A stretch of DNA of 20,685 bases. Origin: a virus. The notes beneath the pieces are model-generated. The model had not been told where the DNA came from and ran no database searches. It worked only from the letters and a program-made list of their open reading frames with translations. This document shows, in pieces, positions 3,735-19,900 of the stretch (its first letter is position 1; every line of letters starts with the position of its first letter). The stretch is from positions 1-20,685 of IMG/VR virus record IMGVR_UViG_3300023176_002506. One strand, given 5' to 3'. A program made the position numbers and the translations under genes.

Positions 3735-4358
3735 ATGTCCCAACTATCTGACAACCTGGAGAATAAAGTAACGCAGGAAGTTTATGGAATGTTTCCTACT
3801 CCTGTTGGACGATATTCTCTCGATAATTATGCACAACTCCGAAATGAAGTCTATACTTACATCAACAAAGTAAAGATTCAAGATGAGTCTGGGCGTGAAT
3901 CAATTTGCCACAATGTAAAACAAATTGGTAACAAGAATGAGTGTATCGAAGAGGCACCACTTCTCACTCAACAACTAATCGAAATTGCCCAAAAGTTTAA
4001 TGATGCCACTTACAACTATGATGTAAACTTTGCCATTAGTGAGGCATATCTAGAGATAGCAAATGAAGGAGCATTGTATGCACCACATGAGCACTCTAAT
4101 TGTTTATTCTCTGCCACTGTTTTGATTAACTACGAGACAGGACATGCTCCTGTTAAGTTTAGACGTAATGTGACCTCTAGTTATTATCCTGTGATGCAAT
4201 TTCCTTCCAAAGGTATGTCCCCCTACAATTTAACGGAAGCAACTACACCAATGGAGGAAGGAGATGTTATTATCTACCCGAGCATGATTACACATGGATA
4301 CGAAGGCAATGCAACCCCTAATCGTATTGCTCTCACTGTTAACTTCGTGCCCATCTAA
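3735..4358 (+). CDS. 2OG-Fe(II) oxygenase family protein, 207 aa
   Basis: Belongs by appearance to the putative 2OG-Fe(II) oxygenases common in T4-like cyanophages (PF13759-like). Such enzymes use iron, O2 and 2-oxoglutarate to hydroxylate a substrate; the phage substrates are not known. Visible landmarks are an N-terminal FPTPVGRYSL opening, APHEHSNCLFSATVLINYE near residues 116-134 with candidate iron ligand His118 or His120, then GDVIIYPSMITHGYE near residues 176-190 with His187, and Arg197 ten residues later as a likely 2-oxoglutarate contact. I see no classical HxD pair, as is usual for this subfamily. It has its own promoter, and an origin-like region follows its stop. Transcription is separate from the small genes on its left. 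Confidence 0.8.
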   Translation: MSQLSDNLENKVTQEVYGMFPTPVGRYSLDNYAQLRNEVYTYINKVKIQDESGRESICHNVKQIGNKNECIEEAPLLTQQLIEIAQKFNDATYNYDVNFAISEAYLEIANEGALYAPHEHSNCLFSATVLINYETGHAPVKFRRNVTSSYYPVMQFPSKGMSPYNLTEATTPMEEGDVIIYPSMITHGYEGNATPNRIALTVNFVPI

Positions 4359-4373
4359 TTAACACTCTCCGCG

Positions 4374-4424
4374 TAGTTTTCCACAGGATTGTTGATAACT
4401 TGTGGAAAAACATGTGGAAAACTA
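4374..4424 (+). other. DnaA-box cluster; candidate replication origin
   Basis: Three perfect TTTTCCACA sites (4377-4385 on +; 4401-4409 and 4413-4421 on -, 12 bases apart) and one TTATCAACA (4390-4398 on -, one mismatch to the E. coli box TTATCCACA). To my knowledge TTTTCCACA is the box form described for cyanobacterial origins. The outer pair lies in a perfect 12-bp inverted repeat (TAGTTTTCCACA / TGTGGAAAACTA). An A/T-rich tract (about 4423-4440) follows and could unwind. The whole stretch 4359-4625 lacks a gene; apart from this cluster it holds AGATCTC repeats and a promoter. Confidence 0.6.
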
Positions 4425-4558
4425 AATACATAAAAAAACATTGGTTTGTGTTGTTTACCTCTGAAGAATGTGTGATCTTTTAGTCATCTCGGACTGTAAC
4501 ACATCAACTCAGATCTCGCAAGATCTCAGAGGACACTACACAAACCCTCACAGACCAC

Positions 4559-4588
4559 TTGACAATAACTCAGAGAAGACTTATTGTC
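4559..4588 (+). promoter_or_regulatory. Strong sigma70 promoter with overlapping inverted repeat
   Basis: TTGACA (4559-4564, perfect), 17-base spacer, TATTGT (4582-4587). GACAATAA (4561-4568) and TTATTGTC (4581-4588) form a perfect 8-bp inverted repeat with 12 bases between, covering both promoter boxes. This is a typical operator layout for a dimeric repressor or activator. Predicted start is near 4594, about 32 bases before the ATG at 4626. Confidence 0.65.
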
Positions 4589-4625
4589 TTATCTGTAATC
4601 AACTCCAAGACACTTTGATTCACTA

Positions 4626-4817
4626 ATGGGACGCACTTACAAACGGAATGATCCTTACAATTCTCGGAGACCTAAGAGTATTCGAGAGAAAAGACAGTGG
4701 GGTAACAGTAAGAAATCCTCCACCAATTATGATGATTATTCCACAGACTTTTCCACAGGTAAGTATCAACGAAAGACCACAGAGTTTGACTCATTTGACC
4801 AGGGAGACTATCAATGA
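4626..4817 (+). CDS. Basic, low-complexity hypothetical protein, 63 aa
   Basis: A 63-residue hydrophilic protein with a strongly basic first half (RTYKRNDPYNSRRPKSIREKR) and a Ser/Thr/Asp/Tyr-rich second half. It has almost no hydrophobic residues, so it is probably disordered and may bind nucleic acid. It is the first gene after the promoter at 4559 and lies just downstream of the DnaA-box cluster; two further DnaA-like boxes are inside its coding sequence. The ATGA at 4814 couples it to the next gene, which is strongly acidic. That basic/acidic pairing suggests the two products may bind each other, which is inference. Confidence 0.65.
   Translation: MGRTYKRNDPYNSRRPKSIREKRQWGNSKKSSTNYDDYSTDFSTGKYQRKTTEFDSFDQGDYQ
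4737..4757 (+). other. Two DnaA-like boxes inside the basic-protein gene
   Basis: TATTCCACA (4737-4745, one mismatch) and TTTTCCACA (4749-4757, perfect), same strand and 12 bases apart, the same spacing as the pair at 4401 and 4413. They lie in coding DNA but repeat the geometry of the intergenic cluster. Confidence 0.45.
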
Positions 4818-11238: not shown

Positions 11239-11430
11239 ATGGCAAATCACCCTATTCCAGATCAAGGCAACGAATTTATCAAGTCGGGAATGGTGTTAAT
11301 CACCGACCCTAGAAGTGATAAATACCTGGGTAAGGTGCATAAGCACCCCAACGATCCGCCCAAAGATCGTTATTCAAAATGGTGTGGTGGTAAAAATGGG
11401 TTTGACGATTTCGTTGAGCGTTGGCACTAA
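11239..11430 (+). CDS. Small basic hypothetical protein, 63 aa
   Basis: A 63-residue protein preceded by a strong ribosome site (AAAGGAGAG, about 6 bases before the ATG), one of the best in the window, so it is probably made in quantity. It has NEFIKSGMVLITDPRSDKY, then a Lys/His/Pro-rich loop (GKVHKHPNDPPKDR), then KWCGGKNGFDDFVERWH. Its stop overlaps the gp25 start (TAATG). I recall no function; conservation next to gp25 would suggest a baseplate or assembly role, which is inference. Confidence 0.7.
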   Translation: MANHPIPDQGNEFIKSGMVLITDPRSDKYLGKVHKHPNDPPKDRYSKWCGGKNGFDDFVERWH

Positions 11431-11840
11431 TGCCCTATAAGTTTAAGTCAGACAAAAACGTAAGTCGCGGGTATCGGGATTTTAACATGACGTTTAATTC
11501 CAATCCAAATACCCGCGACTTTGGTGCTGTCAAAAACGAGAATGCCATCAAGCAGTCCGTCATGAATCTTGTGAAAACAGCACTTGGAGAAAGACCTTTC
11601 CAGCATAACGTTGGATCTAGAGTAAATGCATTGCTATTTGAGCCGTATGATGTGTTTACTGGAGAGGCAATTAAAGACGAGATCAGATCAACACTCTCTC
11701 GCTTTGAAAGGAGAATCTCCGTAAGAGGAGTTGATGTGCGTGATGGGTATGACAACAATCAGATTGAAGTCAAACTTACTTACACAATTATCGGAGAGCA
11801 AATTATTAAAGAAGTAGATTTCGTGCTGGAGAAAGCGTAA
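11430..11840 (+). CDS. gp25: Baseplate wedge protein gp25, 136 aa
   Basis: Homologue of T4 gp25 (132 residues), a baseplate-wedge subunit of the GPW/gp25 family that joins the gp6 ring and primes sheath assembly. The family signature is clear: DFGAVKNENAIKQSVMNLVKT, followed by GERPFQHNVGSRVNALLFEP, and the beta-rich end (IEVKLTYTIIGEQIIKEVDF). I choose the ATG at 11430 (MPYKFKSD) because it makes the TAATG overlap; an ATG-like start three codons upstream lies inside the previous gene. It is followed after three bases by gp6, the usual order. Confidence 0.92.
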   Translation: MPYKFKSDKNVSRGYRDFNMTFNSNPNTRDFGAVKNENAIKQSVMNLVKTALGERPFQHNVGSRVNALLFEPYDVFTGEAIKDEIRSTLSRFERRISVRGVDVRDGYDNNQIEVKLTYTIIGEQIIKEVDFVLEKA

Positions 11841-11843
11841 GTC

Positions 11844-13928
11844 ATGTCGGCAATCCCATCAGAAGTAACGTCACTAGACTTTTTTGAAATAAAAGAGTCT
11901 ATTAGATCATACCTTAGGACTCGTAGTGAATTTACCGACTACGATTTTGAGGGATCTGCTGCGTCTTATTTGCTGGATATTCTAGCATACAATACTTACT
12001 ACACAGCATTCAATGCCAACATGGCGCTGAATGAAGCATTCCTTGAAACTGCAACTGTTAGAGATAACATTGTCAAGATTGCTAAGCAACTTAATTATAC
12101 ACCTAGGTCTATCAAAGCCGCAATGGCAGAGGTGACTGTTGATGTCCAAACAGAAATTGGATCCAACGGTTTGACCTACCCAGAATTTGTGAATCTCAGA
12201 AAGGGAGATTCCTTCATTGCTGAAACGGTGGTTGAAGATTTTATCTTCACACTCATGACAAAGCAAACTGCAGCAGTTGATCCAACAACGGGTATTGCTA
12301 CATTCAAGTGTCTTGCCATCTATCAGGGAAACCTTCTGACCCATTCCTTTATTGTCAACAACACAAAGACAAAGGAATATGTTATCCCAAGTGAAGATGT
12401 GGACACAGAGAGAATGATTGTCTATATCTCTCCCTCGGTGCAGTCCAGCGAAATTGATATCTACAACAAAGCAACGAGTGCCGTTGCATTAGATAGCAAT
12501 TCTCGTGTCTATTTCCTTGAGGAAGTAGATGACCTCAGATATCGTCTTATTTTTGGCGATGGTGTCCTCGGACGTAAATTGATTGATGGTGAGTTTGTCA
12601 AGATTGATTATGTTAGGACCACTGGCGAAGACGCTAACGGTGCTAGAGACTTCCAATTTATTGGTACAGCAACAGACTCACAAGGTAGAGTTATTGCAGC
12701 ATCCTCCATTTCCACAAGGACAGTTACTCCTGCTCAGGACGGGTCTCCAAGAGAAACTCCAATTTCAATCAAATATAATGCCCCCAGACTCTACACTACT
12801 CAAAATAGAGCAGTAACGGAGTCTGACTATGAAAACATCGTTAGACAACTTTACCCACAATCTAAGAGCGTTGTTGCATATGGTGGCGAGAGACTCAATC
12901 CACCTATCTACGGTAAAGTTTTTATTGCAGTCAGACCCCAAACTGGATCGACTCTAAACGAAACGACAAAAGCAAGACTTAGGAATCAACTTAAAGATTA
13001 TTCGATTGCATCTATTGGAATCGAAGTTATTGATCCCAAGGTCTTCTATGTCTTGCCGAAGACCTACGTCTACTACAACGGCAATAAGACAAATCTGACT
13101 GGTAATGATCTTGGGACTAAGATCCTTAAGAATATTGATGATTACAATTCTCAGAATTCTGCCAACAGATACAACGGAAGAATCGAAGCGTCTAAACTCG
13201 CAGCAGTGATTGACAATTCAGATCCTTCCATTTCTGGTAGCACATCTCAAGTAACTCTCGGTCAAAACCTGACAGAATTCAATTTTGGTCAAGTCTTTAA
13301 CCAGTGTCTTGATTTTGGAAACGCACTGTATAATCCAGACAATTATTCTGGCAGCCCGACTTCTGGTAACGGAACGGGAGGTGGATGTGCTCCTAATTTC
13401 TCTGTTGTGAAATCTGGCACATTCTATGCTACTGGATACACTGAAGATCTTGTGGCAGCAGGAACTACTGCAGGTGGCGTTATTCAGACTCCAGCATTTA
13501 GTAGCCTAGAAAATAACCAAACTCTTGTCCCTGTGAATCTTAGAGACGACGGTCTGGGTAATATGATTCTCGTTACCGTTAGGGACGAGCAAGAAGTAAT
13601 TTTGAATACCAATGTCGGCACAGTTGACTACGCATCTGGCACAGTTTGCGTCGGTCCTCTGAATATCGCTTTGACTCCTGATAACACAAATAGGGTGCCT
13701 GTTGTGGTTTATCCTGCTGGTGGATCTCTCACGGTCCCCGCTGGCACAGACCCAACGATTCTAAACCCTCAAGTTAACCCAATCGACTTTACAGTCAACG
13801 ATATTACTATTCCAACGTTTGATCCCAATAACTTTAATGGTTTCAACTTCGGTGGAACATCGACAATAAATATCATTGAATATCCCACGGATACCTTCCA
13901 GTATCCCGAGCTAGACGAGTGCTTCTGA
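11844..13928 (+). CDS. gp6: Baseplate wedge protein gp6, 694 aa
   Basis: Homologue of T4 gp6 (660 residues), which dimerises to form the continuous baseplate ring. Diagnostic parts are the N-terminal stretch with EGSAASYLLDILAYNTYYTA then NMALNEAFLETATVRDNI and AKQLNYTPRS (residues 33-90), the baseplate-J-like middle with YRLIFGDGVLGRKL near residue 236, and RAVTESDYENIVRQLYPQ near residue 325. The last roughly 190 residues (from about 505) include a Gly/Ser/Thr stretch (GSPTSGNGTGGG) and a beta-rich tail, which probably make up the extra length. GGAG 12 bases before the ATG is a modest ribosome site. Confidence 0.93.
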   Translation: MSAIPSEVTSLDFFEIKESIRSYLRTRSEFTDYDFEGSAASYLLDILAYNTYYTAFNANMALNEAFLETATVRDNIVKIAKQLNYTPRSIKAAMAEVTVDVQTEIGSNGLTYPEFVNLRKGDSFIAETVVEDFIFTLMTKQTAAVDPTTGIATFKCLAIYQGNLLTHSFIVNNTKTKEYVIPSEDVDTERMIVYISPSVQSSEIDIYNKATSAVALDSNSRVYFLEEVDDLRYRLIFGDGVLGRKLIDGEFVKIDYVRTTGEDANGARDFQFIGTATDSQGRVIAASSISTRTVTPAQDGSPRETPISIKYNAPRLYTTQNRAVTESDYENIVRQLYPQSKSVVAYGGERLNPPIYGKVFIAVRPQTGSTLNETTKARLRNQLKDYSIASIGIEVIDPKVFYVLPKTYVYYNGNKTNLTGNDLGTKILKNIDDYNSQNSANRYNGRIEASKLAAVIDNSDPSISGSTSQVTLGQNLTEFNFGQVFNQCLDFGNALYNPDNYSGSPTSGNGTGGGCAPNFSVVKSGTFYATGYTEDLVAAGTTAGGVIQTPAFSSLENNQTLVPVNLRDDGLGNMILVTVRDEQEVILNTNVGTVDYASGTVCVGPLNIALTPDNTNRVPVVVYPAGGSLTVPAGTDPTILNPQVNPIDFTVNDITIPTFDPNNFNGFNFGGTSTINIIEYPTDTFQYPELDECF
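13865..13872 (+). promoter_or_regulatory. Possible late-type box before the giant gene
   Basis: AATAAATA, one mismatch to TATAAATA, 60 bases before the giant gene and inside gp6. A single short match in A/T-rich coding DNA; it could allow separate late expression of the giant gene or be chance. Confidence 0.25.
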
Positions 13929-16900: not shown

Positions 16901-19900
16901 ACAACGGCACATTCCAAGTTTCTTCTCGTATCGATGAATATACTTTCTCGTATAGAATCGACACCCCTAGCGACATTGTTCCTGTTGGCAATATTCTGCT
17001 TTCCGTTGACCTCAACAGAGGTAAGTCAACAGAACCTGCAATCAATAGAGTCGTTACCGAGTTTACGACTAATATTCAAAACTCCTTCTTTAACAATAAT
17101 TTTGTGTATGTGGCAGCATCTGGTCTGCCAAACTACAAGATTGGACCCTTTACTGGATCGGCACTTATCCCTGGTAACCAGAGAAAACTGGTTAGGATCC
17201 CCAGGGTTGTTAATACCGTTTCAGAAAGAGAAGAGATCAAACCCAACACCGCTATTGGTGCATGGGTGAATGGTGTCTCTATTTGGACATATAAGTCTGC
17301 TGAGGCAATTCTCTTTGGTCCTCTTACTGGTATTAGTGTTACAAATGCTGGTCAAGACTATGATGCTGGTGCTCCCCCAGTAGTCTTGATCGAAGGTGGT
17401 GGTGGAGCTGGCGCGTCTGCAACTGTTACCGTTAACGGTAGCGTATCCTCTTTTGAGGTCACAAATGGTGGTAGTGGTTATGAAACTTCTCCACTAATCT
17501 CCATCGTTGGTGGAGGTGGCACAGGTGCATCTGGCACCGCTGTGGTTACTAATGGTGTTATCACCAGAATTCTGGTTGCATCTCCTGGTAGTGGATTCAC
17601 TTCCCAACCTAGCATCACCATTACTGGTGGTGGTGGCACGGGTGCTACTGCTATTGCAAACATTCGTGGTCCTATCCAGTCTGTCACTTTGACTAATGCT
17701 GGTAGTGGTTACACATCGCTTCCTAAGGTCACTGTGACCTCTGGTGAAGGTGCTCTAGCACAACCGATCGTCCTGAATGGCCGTATCGTGTCTATTGCTA
17801 CTATTAACTCTGGTAGACGTTATACCACTGCTCCTAGAGTCATTATCAACGGTGATGGATTTGGTGCTATTGCTAAGGCGACTATTGCAACTACTGGTGA
17901 AGACGCTGGTAAAGTAATTGGTATTGAGATCGTAAACAGAGGTATTAACTATACCCAAGGTAACACCACTGTTAGACTTGAAGCAGTTGGCGATTTTGCA
18001 ACGTTTGAAGCGCAGGTGTTTGAATGGAATAAAAACTTTGAATATGAGTTGAATTCCAAGTATGACGTTGCTAGAGGTTACGTCTTTACTGGTCTCAACA
18101 ACCAATATGGTGGTGAATATGCCCACCTCTCCGACCCCAAGGAATTGCGTTATGTGGTTGGCGATAACGTCTTCCTCAATGCAGAAACGAATAGATTCCA
18201 AGAATTAGAGACAAACTATAAGCACTCTCCAATCTTGGGTTGGGCATATGACGGCAACCCGATTTATGGACCTTATGGTTATGGCGATCCCACTGACCAA
18301 AACAGTGGTATCAGAAGACTTCGCACATCTTACAAACTGAAAGATGAGATCGTCTATGACGCTCTGACCAATACAAACCCCGCTAGGGTAGATGGTCCTT
18401 TGCTTTCGGACTATCCTGCTGGATCCTTTGTGCCCGACTATGAGTATGTCTTCCAGTCTGGTGATCTCGATCAGTATAATGGTCGTTTCTGCAAAACACC
18501 AGAGTATCCCGATGGCACCTATGCATACTTTGTAACCATCGACTCTTCTGATGCAGGTATTCCTCAGTTTCCATACATCTTGGGTGGAGCATTCAACTCA
18601 CTCCCAGACTCCTGGAACCTGTCTCAAGGTGCAACTCAAGAAAACATCCCCACAGACGTTGTTAGATATCGTGTGCCTTTTGTTGAGGTTGATATCGATG
18701 TTGAGCGTCAACCAAACCAAGAGTCTGATGTCCTGACGACAGAGAATGAAGGTTGGCCCATCATCTTTGAGATTCAAGATAGCAATCAGGATGGCATCAT
18801 CGATGCTCTAGAGCAACAAGAGCTTCTGGAGATGACCGAGGAAGCAACCCTGCAAATTTATGATTACTTCCCGAAAGTTTCTGCAGAGTCCAAAGTCGAT
18901 ATTGACATTGAAACTGTTACTCAGTTTGAAACTGCACAGATTGATGGTTTCGTTATTGAAAACCCTGGTCAATCTTATCAGGTCAATGACACTATTTTCT
19001 TTGACAACGAAGGCACAGGTGGTTTTGGCGCATCGGCAATCATCGATTCGATTAAAGGTGTTGCAGTCACGTCATATAGTAAGGAGATCATCAACGATAG
19101 ACCCTACGGTGTTATCACAACATCTGAGAATCATGATTTGATTGCTGGCGATGAAATCATTGTCAACTCTGAGCCCATCACCGCCAACACCAACAAGACT
19201 TTCAAAGTTAAGGTGGTGTCTGGTATTGAAGATGTTACCGTTGATATCCCTGGTAGTGGATATACAGCGACCATTCCTCCCACTTATGAGCTGATCAGCA
19301 ACAATGGTAAAGATGGTGAGTTTTCAATTAACCTCAGATCCGATGGTGTTGCAGATTCCTTTAATATCATCAACTCTGGTAATGGTTTTGATATTAACGA
19401 CCCCCCGCAGATTCGTGTCAGTCACCCACAATCGTTTACCAAGACTAGATATTGGTTGTCTGAATATCTGAATGATGGTGGCACTCTGCAGGTCCACGAT
19501 TCGACAATTACCAGCAAGAGAGAATACTACGTTTGTGGATCTCTTGAAGAAACCGAAGATGACGATATGCTCGGCATCCTCGCTAAGTTTGATGTCAATG
19601 GAGATGTGCTTTGGGTTAGGACTTTGCTGCCCAACAACGCTGGCGTCAAGAGAATGGAATTCGTTTCTCTGTATGTTGATGACACAGAAGAAAACGACGC
19701 CATTTATGTTGCAGGCCAAACATATGATCCCAACAACGCAGCATTTAACCCTGATATCTGGTTTGGTAAGTATATCTCCGAAAGAGACGCTCAGAATGCC
19801 CCCACAGGCACTCTACAGTGGCAGAAATCTATCGCAGGTATCTCTGGTCCTGCCAGAAGGGATTTCGTAAGTGATATCTATCTGGATCAGAATAAGTCAA

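Follow-up and report, generated by a model that had tools for sequence, protein, structure and literature searches.

The region at positions 4374-4757 of the 20,685-b fragment of a T4-like cyanophage analyzed here (hereafter, the window) has, judging from its sequence and that of its relatives, an even chance of being a bipartite cis-acting element that serves as a phage replication origin started by the host DnaA. It is part of a ~400-b region conserved among T4-like cyanophages (Kyanoviridae), an element that occurs in about 200 cyanophage records, and in the window it comprises, in this order, a box cluster, an A/T-rich tract, a 45-b block, a predicted promoter and a pair of boxes within a gene (Table 1). 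The boxes are conserved and selected, which suggests that the phages recruit or control the replication starter of the host. T4-like phages serve as the textbook example of replication that needs no host initiator. The more general proposal, that T4-like cyanophages start from one bipartite host-DnaA origin, half of which lies in a coding gene, so that a T4-type module would be placed under a host initiator, is one that we hold with a little less than even confidence.

The original prediction of a T4-like cyanophage is borne out by the baseplate genes gp25 (11421-11840) and gp6 (11844-13928); these, and a 2OG-Fe(II) oxygenase ORF at 3735-4358, were recognized with Pfam or PHROGs. A search of the literature accessible without subscription yielded no paper that links cyanophages with DnaA boxes and origins. 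As to where the copying of DNA starts in the abundant marine cyanophages, a review mentions only a prediction for Syn9, namely a single theta origin (PMC2984593). The element lies at 52,565-52,597 in Syn9 and at 19,231-19,264 in S-PM2. The conserved DnaA-box element thus offers a definite place, sequence and protein to examine in Syn9 or S-PM2.

Table 1. Features of the element in the window (positions are those of the window).
Feature	Start	End	Strand	Remarks
Upstream DnaA-box cluster	4374	4424	.	Outer 12-b inverted repeat; read directly, conserved in relatives
Exact cyanobacterial DnaA box TTTTCCACA	4377	4385	+	Read directly
Weak DnaA box TTATCAACA	4390	4398	-	Read directly
Exact DnaA box TTTTCCACA, first of tandem pair	4401	4409	-	12-b period
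Exact DnaA box TTTTCCACA, second of tandem pair	4413	4421	-	
A/T-rich tract, candidate unwinding stretch	4422	4443	.	AAATGGTTAAAAAACATAGGT in relatives
Conserved 45-b block AATGTG..TAGTCATCTCGGACTGTAACACATCAACT	4466	4509	.	GTTGTTGTCTTAGCACGCnnCCTATCGAnTGTCAAC in relatives
Predicted sigma-70-type (early) promoter TTGACA-17 b-TATTGT	4559	4587	+	TATAAT in most relatives
Small gene MGRTYKRND... carrying the second box pair	4626	4817	+	phrog_3226 / phrog_1464
In-gene box TATTCCACA	4737	4745	+	TTTTCCACA in several relatives
In-gene exact DnaA box TTTTCCACA	4749	4757	+	12 b from TATTCCACA

Upstream Box Cluster

Three exact copies of TTTTCCACA and one of TTATCAACA, located in noncoding DNA within a 12-b inverted repeat and adjoining an A/T tract, had been reported in the original prediction, and all of these features were found again on re-reading. 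The cluster (4377-4421), which precedes CTAAATACATAAAAAAACATT, is placed after the end of the 2OG-oxygenase ORF (4358) and before the next ORFs; the arms of the repeat, TAGTTTTCCACA (4374-4385) and TGTGGAAAACTA (4413-4424), are fully complementary. The window contains four exact TTTTCCACA boxes, as compared with 0.40 expected, and at least four were obtained in 0 of 100 shuffles of the window. Three of the four lie within 45 b. Degenerate boxes (TTWTNCACA, one mismatch) were no more frequent in the window than expected by chance, and the enrichment in the window is limited to the exact cyanobacterial form.

In relatives, the boxes follow one of two arrangements with a 12-b period, (+,-,-) or three tandem boxes (-,-,-), which is what separate protein sites would be expected to give. 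Since several relatives carry three tandem boxes in place of the inverted repeat, the repeat is not the functional unit; the two arrangements therefore rule out a hairpin or palindromic operator and favor separate binding sites. Immediately after the boxes, at 4422-4428, the sequence CTAAATA is similar to the T4 late promoter motif. A late promoter at this spot was rejected, as relatives show CTAAATG or GAAATA there.

Conservation among Cyanophages

A distant blastn search with positions 4300-4640 of the window matched 17 cyanophage records. With the S-RIM32 element as the query, 129 matches were obtained at E 0.01, and the first 71 b of that element gave 205 matches at E 1, all but one of them cyanophages. 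In relatives, the element occupies one conserved place, a largely non-coding gap between small ORFs, which is located at or just behind the 2OG oxygenase in Syn1, S-PM2, S-CAM1, S-RIM32, Sf-CH11, Sf-FP1 and Sf-FR1. In records with annotated PAAR, gp25 or gp6 genes, it precedes these by a few kb. Absence of the cluster from close relatives had been raised in the original prediction as a point against it; relatives in fact have the cluster too, in many cases next to the 2OG oxygenase. The tRNA-Asn and tRNA-Leu annotated across the element of S-PM2 (L251:3953-4109) are probably spurious, as are, likewise, the hypothetical ORFs annotated over it in Syn1 and S-RIM2.

The order of the modules in relatives is boxes, AAATGGTTAAAAAACATAGGT, the block GTTGTTGTCTTAGCACGCnnCCTATCGAnTGTCAAC and a TTGACA-17-TATAAT promoter; upstream cluster, A/T tract, conserved block and promoter stay together, and the A/T tract is present in nearly all relatives aligned. 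A structured RNA in the conserved block was rejected, because RNAalifold on 15 sequences yielded no pair and hence no consensus RNA structure. An nhmmer profile from which the box columns had been removed found the element in S-RSM4, Syn9 (E 2e-16) and S-SM1 (E 4e-15), the latter two of which had not been used in building the profile. It also gave weak matches in P-SSM4 (E 0.03) and P-HM2 (E 0.14; 0.002 with the full profile). These box-less matches, at 51,052-51,109 in P-SSM4 (L432-L440) and 35,603-35,721 in P-HM2 (L441-L450), are followed by promoter-like sequence without DnaA boxes. The T4 genome showed neither a box cluster nor an nhmmer match to the element.

A close box cluster was found in 22 of 26 cyanophage records, a fraction that is not a prevalence because 21 of the 26 had been entered as element matches; it was absent from S-RSM4, P-SSM2, P-SSM4 and P-HM2. 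Among five cyanophage records picked blind, two (Syn9 and S-SM1) have the cluster. No prevalence was taken from the exact-pattern matches listed for IMG/VR and GTDB, which mix many unrelated genomes. The boxes are thus not needed by every relative: the cluster is missing from P-SSM2, P-SSM4 and P-HM2, and S-RSM4 retains the remainder of the element in its absence. Of 117,845 9-mers, only TTTTCCACA forms recurring close pairs in every one of eight genomes (six element matches and two blind), and the best unrelated 9-mer does so in three of the eight. The boxes are concentrated at the locus: within 1.1 kb for 5/5 exact boxes of S-RIM32 (194 kb), within 0.7 kb for 5/6 of S-CREM1, and within 460 b for seven boxes of DSL-LC03. 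In DSL-LC03, a freshwater Synechococcus phage, five exact TTTTCCACA boxes lie within 75 b (L254:4388-4460), ~0.4 kb behind the first cluster.

The Presumed Binding Protein

In S. elongatus PCC 7942, Anabaena PCC 7120 and Cyanothece 51142, the consensus DnaA box reads TTTTCCACA, assays on such boxes have been reported for Anabaena and Cyanothece, and the 9-mer TTATCAACA is listed among the boxes of the Cyanothece linear chromosome (PMC4674748); this source confirms the cyanobacterial DnaA-box form that had been named in the original prediction. We found that cyanobacterial chromosomes also have tandem boxes with 12-b spacing. The presumed oriCs of marine Synechococcus, located before dnaN, contain 0-1 exact boxes and several one-mismatch boxes, with a DnaA-trio arranged as box-GC-rich-CTACTAC, and no exact box was found in the presumed oriC of Prochlorococcus; the hosts were assigned from genome size, GC content and the gene preceding dnaN. 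Given the published consensus, the 12-b tandems of the chromosomes and the comparison with host oriCs, DnaA is the likely binder of the phage boxes.

Another protein, phage- or host-coded, might instead prefer TTTTCCACA, with DnaA not being involved. This would accord with the lack of boxes in some Prochlorococcus phages and in S-RSM4, which has an inverted repeat, GGTTCTCAATA...TATTGAGAATC, at the box position, as if binders were exchangeable. We nevertheless consider it very improbable, as the 9-b match to the DnaA box of the host phylum is exact and is accompanied by the weak forms TTATCAACA, TTATCCACA and TTTTCAACA, and the 12-b tandem spacing is shared with cyanobacterial chromosomes. S-RSM4 has a single TTWTCCACA in 194 kb, and its inverted repeat lies at L252:3960-4000. 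The repeats TTCTCAATA/TTGAGAA found behind the boxes of DSL-LC03 are similar to it, and the two are possibly an exchanged binding module.

A second alternative, already raised in the original prediction, retains DnaA as the binder: boxes multiplied with the phage genome would bind DnaA and keep the host oriC free of it. Exact boxes are dense at the locus and few elsewhere, such titration needs neither skew nor trios nor an unwinding stretch, and the presumed marine Synechococcus oriCs have few exact boxes, so that a few strong phage boxes could compete. Titration sites of the datA type likewise consist of a cluster of strong DnaA boxes. Unlike datA, however, the element has a conserved promoter, A/T tract and block adjoining the boxes, and titration requires neither a fixed place, nor conserved neighbors, nor two clusters ~330 b apart around a promoter. 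Furthermore, only 3-7 exact boxes per genome are present at the locus, with a long array like that of datA in none except DSL-LC03. A titration or decoy site is therefore rather improbable.

In presumed marine Synechococcus and Prochlorococcus genomes, convergent pairs of TTTTCCACA recur at separations of 272-291 b or 44 b (L310:2338-2618, L315:2141-2421, L312:2269-2579, L314:2299-2593, L311:1976-2028, L313:2086-2138 and L316:1947-1999); these pairs sit away from oriC, one of them behind recG. A location of close host pairs near dnaA was considered and rejected, the flanking gene being of the beta-lactamase family.

Boxes within the Downstream Gene

A second tandem pair of boxes (4737-4757), overlooked in the original prediction, lies ~330 b downstream of the first cluster. 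Relatives of the small gene that carries it were gathered by protein search and then dereplicated (n = 43); because they were collected by protein, codon choice is free in this set. An exact box was present in 33 of the 43 genes, as compared with 4.3 ± 1.9 expected when synonymous codons were redrawn, and the 78,760 b of sequence following these genes contain one box. This excess over what synonymous choice would give demonstrates selection on the box DNA, by which the in-gene boxes are maintained. The in-gene box is mostly coded as Phe-Ser-Thr (TTT TCC ACA), and in some lineages it lies at the same spot on the other strand, TGTGGAAAA, coding (S/Y)-V-E-(N/K). At least one exact box is found within 350 b upstream of the gene in 36 of 38 cases. 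An alignment of 33 small-gene loci shows the upstream boxes, the A/T tract (TTAAATGnnTAAATAAATATA), the block GTTACCTtGGAccG-TAACACAtCA and TTGTC-AACA, and then the promoter CTTGACA...TATAAT and the in-gene boxes. An earlier synonymous-site test (0/60 differences) was discarded for partial circularity, as the box pattern itself had been used to fetch three of the sequences in it.

The position of the promoter between the two clusters, in the window and in relatives, raises the possibility that DnaA bound at both regulates this sigma-70-type promoter, through looping repression or activation and with no replication start, thereby tying an early phage operon to host DnaA or to the cell-cycle state. 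The TTGACA-17-TATAAT motif is a good one, the isolates have a similar promoter downstream of the boxes, DnaA is a known transcription factor, and the layout with two clusters could also be that of a looped, DnaA-controlled promoter. However, the distance from boxes to promoter varies from about 110 to 250 b, and conservation extends to the A/T tract and the block, even in the boxless S-RSM4. The element also persists with different genes behind the promoter in different phages (the MGRTYKRND gene in the window versus Kyano_Gp96 in S-CREM1), and for this reason the element does not serve one gene. We regard regulation of the promoter alone as unlikely.

Candidate Replication Origin

We prefer the hypothesis that the element is an origin. 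Host DnaA would bind the upstream cluster, with its three exact boxes and one weak box, and also the second cluster inside the next small gene; DnaA and transcription from the promoter between the clusters would open the A/T-rich DNA, onto which the phage replisome (T4-type helicase, gp59 loader and primase) would be loaded. The first rounds of copying would then start at the element, before T4-type recombination-dependent replication takes over. A T4-type helicase with gp59 loader and primase is known from this phage group. The binding of DnaA, the opening of DNA by it and the start of copying at the element are inferred. The arrangement, with a promoter and A/T DNA lying in the ~330 b that separate the two clusters, is reminiscent of a transcription-activated bipartite origin. 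The promoter motif is present and is followed in some phages by very A/T-rich DNA, and most members include DnaA boxes. If DnaA is used, the start of the phage would depend on the replication state of the host and on hosts with a working DnaA system, and the boxless state of three Prochlorococcus phages would be a host-linked trait.

The skew inflection that the original prediction had named as a check did not materialize: GC-, AT-, purine- and keto-skew, over whole sequences and at 4-fold sites, showed no consistent change at the element in ten complete genomes. A GC-skew extreme within 6-13 kb of the element, where present, mostly has the sign of a terminus, and an AT-skew minimum 0.6 kb from the element occurs in S-CREM1 only. 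Recombination-dependent replication of the T4 type may erase or blur the skew. No DnaA-trio was seen by eye beside the boxes in the phage elements, and a phage helicase loader could make such trios unnecessary. In the window, S-CREM1 and S-H38, the A/T tract is unstable to a moderate degree only. A ~100-b stretch lying 210-260 b downstream in S-RIM32 and S-CAM1 ranks within the 0.04% of the genome with the lowest stability. The A/T tract is found 5' of the nearest box, at its TTTT end; the unwinding stretch of known oriCs is at the 3' (CACA) end. This unusual side counts against an origin, as do the inconsistent skew, the missing trios and the boxless S-RSM4.

Like the oriCs of the cyanobacteria PCC 7942, PCC 7120 and 51142, the element has several exact intergenic TTTTCCACA boxes in A/T-rich surroundings. 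It differs from them in not being beside dnaN, in lacking a DnaA-trio and a skew switch, in the opposite placement of the A/T tract relative to the nearest box and in having one cluster within a coding gene. The bipartite origins of B. subtilis and Helicobacter, in which box groups flank dnaA, similarly have two DnaA-box groups a few hundred bases or a gene apart; in the phage element, in contrast, what lies between the clusters is a phage promoter and the beginning of a small gene. P1 oriR, pSC101 and lambda use host DnaA in a compact origin, as is proposed here, together with an own initiator (RepA, O) and iterons; at the element, neither an own initiator nor an iteron array of this type was seen. 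In lambda, the origin sites lie inside a gene, as does the second box pair here, and transcription through the origin is required.

T4 origins, including ori(uvsY) and ori(34), work through promoter R-loops and without DnaA. The element shares with them a T4-like phage as its bearer and a promoter with A/T-rich DNA upstream of baseplate genes, whereas T4 has no box cluster and gave no nhmmer match. In T4, ori(uvsY) is located near uvsW. We observed a ResIII/DEAD helicase gene (phrog_16), possibly UvsW-like, 1.5-3 kb upstream of the element in S-CREM1 (L005:1651-2910) and S-H38 (L006:3216-4463).
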